34,631 nucleotides of DNA, from the NCBI GenBank assembly GCA_903842425.1, contig CAIMLY010000040.1:1-34631 (forward strand), given 5' to 3'. The stretch comes from an uncultured Alphaproteobacteria bacterium. Lineage in GTDB: Bacteria; Pseudomonadota; Alphaproteobacteria; Caulobacterales; Caulobacteraceae. The notes beneath the pieces are model-generated. The model was given only the letters and a program-made list of their open reading frames with translations, did no database searches and was not told the DNA's origin. The translations under genes were made by a program, and so were the position numbers. Of the stretch, positions 32,116 to 34,631 are shown piece by piece; position 1 is the stretch's first letter, and each line of letters opens with the position of its first letter.

Positions 32116-32523
32116 CTATTCGGGCCGCCAGGCCTCGTAGTCGCCGGCGGCTCGGGCGCGCTCGCCGCCCCGGGTGATCGATCCCTTCGGGCGCCAGGCG
32201 TGGACCGTACCGGTCAGGTTGGGCTGGTGATCCTTCTCCCAGGACCTGCGGGTGAGAGGCGCCACGGTCGGCGGCTCGTCAAAGGTGTAGTGCAGCCAGC
32301 CATGCCACTCCGCCGGCACCTTTGAGGCGTCCGGATAGCCCTTGTAGATCACCCAGCGCCGGCGGCGCCCGTCGTAGGAATCCCTAGCGTCGCGGGCCTC
32401 GAAATAGCGGTTGCCATAGTCGTCCTGCCCGACCGGAACGCCACGGCGCTTGATATGAAAACCCGCGCCGATCGTGGCGCCGTTCCACCAGGTGAAGATC
32501 GCTTTCAGCACGCCCGTACACAC
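32116..32523 (-). CDS. NADH:ubiquinone oxidoreductase NDUFA12/B17.2-family protein
   Basis: FTWWNGATIGAGFHIKRRGVPVGQDDYGNRYFEAR, RRWVIYKGYPDASKVPAEWHGWLHYTFDEPP. Confidence 0.92.
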   Translation of the reverse strand: MCTGVLKAIFTWWNGATIGAGFHIKRRGVPVGQDDYGNRYFEARDARDSYDGRRRRWVIYKGYPDASKVPAEWHGWLHYTFDEPPTVAPLTRRSWEKDHQPNLTGTVHAWRPKGSITRGGERARAAGDYEAWRPE

Positions 32524-32587
32524 CCGCTCAGGTTCATTGCGGGCGGACTATAGGTTGCGCGGCCCCCAGCGTCCAGCGACGAGACCA

Positions 32588-32603
32588 CCGCAAGATCTTG
32601 TGG
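32588..32603. promoter_or_regulatory. NrdR-box-like palindrome 1: CCGCAAGATCTTGTGG
   Basis: Matches the conserved core of the NrdR consensus acaCwAtATaTwGtgt (C-A-A-n-A-T-n-T-T-G-T-G). Confidence 0.6.
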
Positions 32604-32619
32604 ATGCCTCCACCCCAGA

Positions 32620-32635
32620 CCGCAACATCTGTTGC
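32620..32635. promoter_or_regulatory. NrdR-box-like palindrome 2: CCGCAACATCTGTTGC
   Basis: Same left half as box 1 and exactly 32 bp downstream (16-bp gap), the spacing expected of tandem NrdR boxes; weaker right half. Confidence 0.5.
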
Positions 32636-32682
32636 CCGACCCCTATGAGCGCCCTAACCTCCCGCGACTGGAGGCCTTATCG

Positions 32683-34631
32683 ATGTACACCCCGCCCGTT
32701 CTCGAGCCCCGGCAGGTCGAACTGCGGGACCGGTGTGTCGAGGTGATCGCGCCCGTGGGCTGGACAGACGCCCAGGTCGAGGCCTGGATGGACGTCCTCG
32801 GCGGCGCGGCGGACCTCGGCGCCGCGATTGCAGACCTGTCATCGGGGATCGCCAAAGCGGCCCGGGGACGAGACCGGTCGGCTGGGCGGGTTCCCGAGCG
32901 CGCCCTTGCTGACCGGCTGACGGGGCTGATGCTGAACGGCGCCGCGGCGATCGGCGCGGACCCGGGGCCCGGGCCCGCCCTGGCCCAGGCCGGGGACCCG
33001 GCGCTTGCCGGGCGGCTGGCGTCCCTCTCCGCCACGCTCCGGGGCGAGACGCTGGCCCAGGCGGCGGCCGAGGCCGCGGCGGGCCCGCTCCAGTCCGTCC
33101 TCGACGCCATCGGCCGCTGCGAGGGATCCGCCGAGGCCTGCGCCTCGCCGCAGGACAATCCGGGCTTGGCCCGAGCCATCGAACGCGCCCGGGCCGCCGG
33201 TGCGCCGGACGACCTGATCGCCGAGGCGATCGACCTGGCCCTCGCCGGCGAGACCGCCTGGACGATGGTCTCGCCGCCAGGTCCCGACGACCGGCTGAGG
33301 CTGCTCGTGACGTCCCCGGGGATAGACCGCGGCCTGATGCGATTCCTGACCGGCGCGGTTGGCCTGGCCGACAGTCCGGCGACCGCGACCGCCCTGGCCG
33401 GCGCGCCGGAGCGGGTCCGGGGCGCAGTGAGCCTCTGCGCCTTCGGTCTGGGCGAAGATTTCGACACGGCCGGGTTCGAGCAGGCCATGGGGGATCTCGC
33501 CCTGGCCCTGGCGGCCTCCGGGCGGCCGGGCCTGGTCGGCCTGGCCGGACTGGGCGACTGGCTCCTGGCCCGTGGCCTCGCCTATGGCTCGGAGGCGGCG
33601 CAGAAGGCTGCGCGGGGCCTCTACAAGCGAGCCCGACGCGCGATCCCGGAAGGCCTGGATGTCGGAATGGCGATCTTCGCGGATCCGGACCTGACCCTCA
33701 GGCTCGGGGGCGCCGATCCCTGCGCCGGTCCGTCCGGCGGCCCGGTCCTCGAGGTGGAGACCACAGACGGCGTCCTGATGCGAACCCTGACAGGACCGGC
33801 CCTTCGCGCCCTTCACCTGCTGGGCCTCGACCCCGGGGACGCCCGTCTCCATGCCCTGGGCGCCCGGGACCTTTCAGGCCTTCCGGGTGTCGACCGCGCG
33901 GCGCTCGAGGCGCGGGGGTTCACCGACCACGAGATCGCGGCGGTGGAGTCCGCCCTGCCCTTCGCCCGGCGCCTTTCCGATGTCCTGTCGCCGACAGTCA
34001 TCGACCCTGGCTTCCTCGTCGACGTGTTGGGCGTGGCCGAGGCGGACCTGGCCGATCCCGGCCTGGACCTGCCGGCACGGATGGGGTTCACCGTGGAACA
34101 GGTGGCCCAGGCCGAGGCGGCGATCGCCGGCGCCGGGCGGCTGTCGAACCTGCCGGGCCTGACCGGGGACCAGGCTGCAGTGTTGACCCTGGGCGGTGAC
34201 GTCGGGGCGGAGGCGCGCCTCGCCATGGCCGCAGCCCTGGCGCCGCAACTGGCCACACCGCCGGTCCTCGACGTCGAGGCCCAGACAGCCGGCGACCTCG
34301 AAGCCCTCCTGGCGTCGATTCCGGCGGCGGCGGGCGTCGTCCTGCGGCCGCGGATCCGGCGGGCGCCCCTGGGGCTCGCTTCCGCCCGGATCCCGGTGCG
34401 GGCAGAGACCGCCGCACAGGCAGAGCCCCAGGAAGCCCCCCCGCCGGAAGAGCGGATCATCGAACGCCGCATCGAGGTCGAGCGACCTCCGACCCGGCGC
34501 AAGCTTCCGGACCGGCGGAAGGGGTACATCCAGAAGGCCTCGGTGGGCGGCCACAAGGTCTATCTTCATACCGGTGAATATGACGACGGCGAGCTCGGTG
34601 AAATCTTCATCGACATGCACAAGGAGGGTGC
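32683..34631 (+). CDS. truncated at right edge: class II ribonucleotide reductase (NrdJ)-derived, TSCPD-domain protein apparently lacking the RNR catalytic barrel
   Basis: ATG at 32683, open for ~649 codons to the window end (absent from the ORF track because no stop lies in the window). C-terminus [46 protein letters not shown] is the NrdJ TSCPD region; internal blocks also resemble NrdJ. Confidence 0.85.

Follow-up and report, generated by a model that had tools for sequence, protein, structure and literature searches.

A predicted NrdR operator is conserved upstream of a non-catalytic NrdJ descendant in Caulobacteraceae

Analysis of a 34,631-nucleotide contig from an uncultured member of the Caulobacteraceae (the window, taken at its full length) revealed a pair of NrdR-like boxes spanning 95–48 bp before the ATG of a gene of the ribonucleotide reductase (RNR) family and overlapping a conserved −35 element. 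Comparison with related genomes makes it very probable that the pair is a genuine NrdR operator, inherited from canonical nrdJ and now controlling a Caulobacteraceae pseudoenzyme kept under selection. The operator is of a known kind; what is new is the gene that it would control, a catalytically dead RNR retained under selection and predicted to answer to the same repressor as nrdAB. The elements of this arrangement are as follows:

32588..32603, plus strand: predicted NrdR box 1, CCGCAAGATCTTGTGG, a near-perfect 16-bp palindrome of the form CCNCAANATNTTGNGG
32604..32619, plus strand: inter-box spacer of 16 bp, unconserved except for the bases adjoining box 1
32620..32635, plus strand: predicted NrdR box 2, CCGCAACATCTGTTGC, with a canonical left half and a right half that overlaps the −35
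32683..34631, plus strand: NrdJ-derived gene, truncated at the contig end, for a class II ribonucleotide reductase pseudoenzyme

The initial annotation had placed two NrdR-like boxes at 32588 and 32620, their starts 32 bp apart; these coordinates are exact, leaving a spacer of 16 bp, and the boxes begin 95 and 63 bp, respectively, ahead of ATG 32683. The likeness to NrdR sites holds fully for box 1, which follows the CWANATNTWG-type 16-bp palindrome throughout, but needs correction for box 2, which follows it in the left half CCGCAACAT only; the best palindrome within box 2 is GCAACATCTGTTGC (32622–32635), whose centre lies 33 bp from that of box 1. NrdR proteins bind well in vitro with spacers of 14–17 bp (PMC12051234), and the distance observed here falls inside this tolerance whether it is taken as the 16-bp spacer or as 33 bp from centre to centre; with spacers of 16 bp here and 15–16 bp in relatives, the centres lie about three helical turns apart. 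In this layout, with 16-bp palindromic boxes paired at roughly three turns ahead of a gene of the RNR family and NrdR encoded in the same genome, the site resembles the NrdR operators of E. coli nrdAB, nrdHIEF and nrdDG and of S. coelicolor nrdRJ; what sets it apart is that the gene is a non-catalytic RNR descendant and that box 2 is half-degenerate at its overlap with the −35.

A symmetric motif was trained only on nrdA and nrdB box pairs from the same genome and its relatives, with the window gene excluded; the training sites had been chosen using the general NrdR consensus, which calls for caution. Along the window's given strand (~34,600 positions), box 1 ranked first by this motif (17.3 bits; next, 11.2), box 2 alone ranked fifth, and the pair 32588/32620 came first by far (26.1 bits versus 9.2 for the next). 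A chance resemblance without function might be argued from the 0.74 single-box matches, with up to two mismatches, expected in a sequence of window size. This explanation was rejected, and its probability is negligible: the two-box pattern occurred in none of 100 dinucleotide shuffles of the window, the pair held the top motif rank, the exact form of box 1 has a single occurrence in the 2.57-Mb assembly (89% complete), and the conservation of the pair in all 30 promoters read from the genus refutes it. The only sites that a looser pair pattern picked out in this fragmented assembly were that of the window and another pair in the nrdA-nrdB gap.

Genome-level evidence for the motif comes from pattern searches in 60 genomes, which belong to Phenylobacterium according to their named records. 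The strict two-box pattern gave one match per genome in 48 of the 60 and none with a reversed-pattern control; the looser pattern matched 58 of the 60, with 14 control matches in total. Both boxes are kept in 30/30 Phenylobacterium promoters, mostly 32 bp and in a few cases 31 bp apart, and box pairs also precede the orthologues in Caulobacter and Brevundimonas, in keeping with the conservation among close relatives that the initial reading entailed. Across 29 aligned promoters, from genomes related to each other and with the spacer as internal control, the mean information per column is 1.53 bits for box 1 and 1.39 bits for box 2 versus 0.41 bits for the spacer (offsets 18–29), which makes the boxes ~3.5 times more conserved than the sequence between them; in box 1, none of the eight core columns varies. 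Upstream of canonical full-length nrdJ in other alphaproteobacterial orders, a pair scores above all 100 shuffles in most of 30 loci, and a box 2 with the same ATCTATTGC ending precedes canonical nrdJ in three loci of other orders (L105, L120 and L125). Because the pair also precedes canonical nrdJ in these orders, the operator was probably inherited from the canonical alphaproteobacterial gene.

NrdR itself is encoded in the genome, as the operator reading presupposes (TIGR00244, 172.7 bits; cut-off, 124.65), with its zinc ribbon and ATP-cone (PF22811, PF03477) and in the gene order glyA-nrdR-ribD, the neighbours being named by eye from sequence. The RNR genes nrdA and nrdB of the same genome bear the same paired motif on contig C240: the nrdA promoter carries CATGATGTTG and CTAGATGTAG, 31 bp apart, and nrdB has a pair of its own in addition to the one before nrdA:

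G000:C240:257-295 (own genome, contig C240), minus strand: NrdR-like box pair of nrdB in the nrdA-nrdB gap, CAACATGTTG and CTAGATATCG, 31 bp apart

The proposal that the boxes form an NrdR operator is upheld, as a sequence-based prediction, by their conservation, by the encoded NrdR and by the motif common to nrdA and nrdB, and NrdR repression common to nrdA, nrdB and the NrdJ-derived gene is predicted as the most likely arrangement. Against it can be set the imperfect right half of box 2 beside the more regular box 1, with single-box binding conceivable; another regulator with the same half-site is also conceivable, but it would have to act at the nrdA and nrdB sites too. Predictions of NrdR regulons span the Proteobacteria (PMC5343134); therefore, the window operator may already be listed in regulon databases. 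A separate NrdR-like pair of boxes occurs within rsmG (gidB), at its 3′ end and ~130 bp upstream of parA (L155:2018; also L157 and L158; gene names by eye), in roughly a quarter of the 60 Phenylobacterium genomes; it coincides with codons for a QDVAxELxEA-like motif, and the pair-pattern search did not find it in the genome of the window.

The boxes sit between two divergent promoters, the elements of which were assigned as follows:

32632..32637, plus strand: probable −35 element TTGCCC of the NrdJ-like gene, its TTG columns kept in 26–29 of 29 promoters
32653..32660, plus strand: probable −10 element CCTAACCT, a conserved block (offsets 65–72) downstream of box 2
32670..32674, plus strand: putative ribosome-binding site GGAGG of the NrdJ-like gene, conserved at offsets 82–85, 8 bp before ATG 32683
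32547..32575, minus strand: predicted divergent NDUFA12 promoter TGGACG-17-TATAGT, a scan match with 0.0 expected by shuffles, both hexamers conserved
32116..32523, minus strand: NDUFA12, a complex I accessory subunit and divergent neighbour (NF006040, 192 bits; PF05071)

The −35 assignment draws on conservation and on the spacing of 16 to the −10; in the 29 promoters, the conserved TTGC block is the right end of box 2. Since box 2 overlaps the conserved −35, its occupancy would occlude this element, and repression by occlusion is likely. With plentiful dATP, an NrdR tetramer would occupy both boxes, one dimer on each and three helical turns apart; covering the −35, the bound protein would repress the gene together with nrdA and nrdB, and a fall in dNTPs would release it. 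The location between divergent promoters, together with the imperfection of box 2 as an NrdR palindrome, might instead suit a regulator other than NrdR, one that binds CAANAT half-sites in the service of the divergent gene NDUFA12. We consider this very unlikely, as nrdA and nrdB have operators with this same motif, the pair also stands before canonical nrdJ in other orders, and it is the −35 of the NrdJ-like gene that box 2 overlaps, with the NDUFA12 promoter outside the boxes (its −35 ends 12 bp short of box 1). As for direct control of NDUFA12, the boxes do not overlap its promoter; the earlier suggestion that this gene could also be affected gained no specific support, its conserved promoter lying outside the boxes, and a direct effect is possible.

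The gene behind this predicted NrdR operator ends at the contig end, and the C-terminus of its product was read in relatives only; complete close relatives are about 800–830 aa long. The window ORF matches the NrdJ model NF005736 at positions 733–850 and 944–1013, and the profile of its family matches Rhodobacter sphaeroides NrdJ (PDB 7b9p) with an E-value of 8e-48. A predicted model of a full-length orthologue, in which the N-terminal 560 residues are well predicted and the C-terminal part poorly, has 7b9p as its best fold match (E 3.9e-16), with a TM-score of only 0.43. The truncated window ORF has no Pfam match; in a full-length relative, Pfam recognises TSCPD. By alignment, the gene is co-linear with nrdJ and descends from it; in the predicted model, its product has an RNR-like fold. 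In other alphaproteobacteria, short ORFs of 282 and 530 aa match only the TSCPD part of NrdJ (G140:C4:44791-45462 and G158:C1:1004124-1004471) and are possible stand-alone C-terminal modules.

Canonical alphaproteobacterial nrdJ (NF005736/PRK07562) encodes a class II, B12-dependent RNR with a C-terminal CRD, with which the window gene shares co-linearity, a near-identical TSCPD region, the zinc cysteines and the same kind of operator. The TSCPD region aligns almost unchanged, but nothing corresponds to the N-terminus of NrdJ or to the stretch that bears the catalytic NPCSE loop; the window gene family is without about 170 N-terminal residues, the loop and other core segments. The NPCSE loop and a six-cysteine tail are found in 29 of 30 canonical NrdJ loci, whereas NPCSE is absent and the tail cysteines number exactly four in 63/63 Caulobacteraceae orthologues with a readable tail; Euryhalocaulis, the one exception in the Caulobacteraceae orthologue set, has a canonical NrdJ. 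In S. nassauensis NrdJd, four zinc-type cysteines have been distinguished experimentally, albeit incompletely, from two proposed redox cysteines (PMC5704485); by alignment with these roles, the Caulobacteraceae have lost the proposed redox pair and kept the four zinc-type residues. Without the catalytic loop and the redox cysteines, the product should not be an active NrdJ; it is best read as a maintained pseudoenzyme, neither a working RNR nor random debris. An operator of a true nrdJ was rejected as a description of the site, the window gene being without the catalytic loop. The literature searched for TSCPD and RNR pseudoenzymes contained no description of the Caulobacteraceae protein.

The sole RNR catalytic subunit in the genome is the class I NrdA, and no class II catalytic partner was found there. 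Eighteen of the 60 Phenylobacterium genomes (L032–L049) have an additional compact class II NrdJ-like gene of about 770 aa with a six-cysteine tail; in these 18 relatives, the NrdR box pair is absent from the 260-bp region upstream of the compact gene. Both findings likewise spoke against a true nrdJ operator.

The NrdJ-derived gene is under purifying selection. Every one of the 60 genomes from the genus has it with an open frame, and dN/dS for the protein body is 0.13–0.26 in five of six pairs and 0.53 in the sixth, the most divergent, with lower values, at most 0.28, for the TSCPD/zinc C-terminal part. These figures bear on the possibility that the operator is a leftover to which NrdR still binds, standing before a slowly decaying, functionless nrdJ remnant. 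Such decay would fit the disappearance of the catalytic loop, the redox cysteines and the N-terminal region, the quick evolution of the body (41–46% identity between more distant genus lineages) and the family-level matches in only 72 of 81 genomes, some members having no detectable copy. It is nevertheless unlikely given the intact frames, the low dN/dS in both parts of the protein, and the conservation of operator and promoter among species that have randomised spacers. The initial annotation had taken the boxes to mark an active member of the dNTP-synthesis regulon rather than debris; the presence in all 60 genomes and the low dN/dS argue for a maintained gene, but the ORF, its loop and redox cysteines gone, is no active NrdJ. 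The preferred reading is therefore amended to one in which the operator of canonical alphaproteobacterial nrdJ would have been passed on, while the gene behind it became a pseudoenzyme in Caulobacteraceae, with the RNR-like scaffold, the TSCPD domain and the four-cysteine zinc site retained under selection.

What such a protein may do can be considered in the light of other class II enzymes. The CRD of class II RNR drives dATP- and dGTP-induced oligomers (PMC5704485), and it can act as a separate polypeptide: Pseudomonas aeruginosa NrdJb, part of a split class II RNR (PMC4520616), likewise has a CRD on a polypeptide without the catalytic core and offers a precedent for action in trans, although NrdJb mediates dithiol exchange and the two proposed redox-pair cysteines are lost here. 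Exactly one ATP-cone was found in 78 of 81 Caulobacteraceae genomes, mostly in a frame of 150–200 residues that fits NrdR; the exceptions are one genome with an extra fragment and two incomplete genomes with none. Because the sole ATP-cone of nearly all 81 genomes sits in an NrdR-sized frame, the RNRs of this family appear to be without an activity-site cone. Since the CRD oligomerises and can act separately and these RNRs apparently have no such cone, a regulatory subunit is a reasonable guess: tentatively, the dead NrdJ might be a dNTP-regulated control subunit, under NrdR control together with NrdAB, whose action in trans would target the class I enzyme or dNTP sensing. If true, this would supply an overall activity control that is otherwise absent in these bacteria.

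The family includes the cell-cycle model Caulobacter crescentus, in which CCNA_01966 has been treated as NrdJ, a B12-dependent RNR (PMC6538847, PMC5869019). Because the matches to the NrdJ model NF005736 in two C. vibrioides genomes are only NrdA and the pseudoenzyme, CCNA_01966 is probably the orthologue of the window pseudoenzyme, with the identity of the locus tag inferred; its published name implies an activity that the pseudoenzyme sequence disallows, and 'B12-dependent NrdJ' is probably the wrong name for it in models of Caulobacter B12 and dNTPs (PMC6538847). The retention of sites and gene alike throughout a bacterial family suggests that a 'dead' enzyme still has a job in the control of DNA precursors, and a non-catalytic role for an RNR relative would be directly testable in a genetically easy organism.
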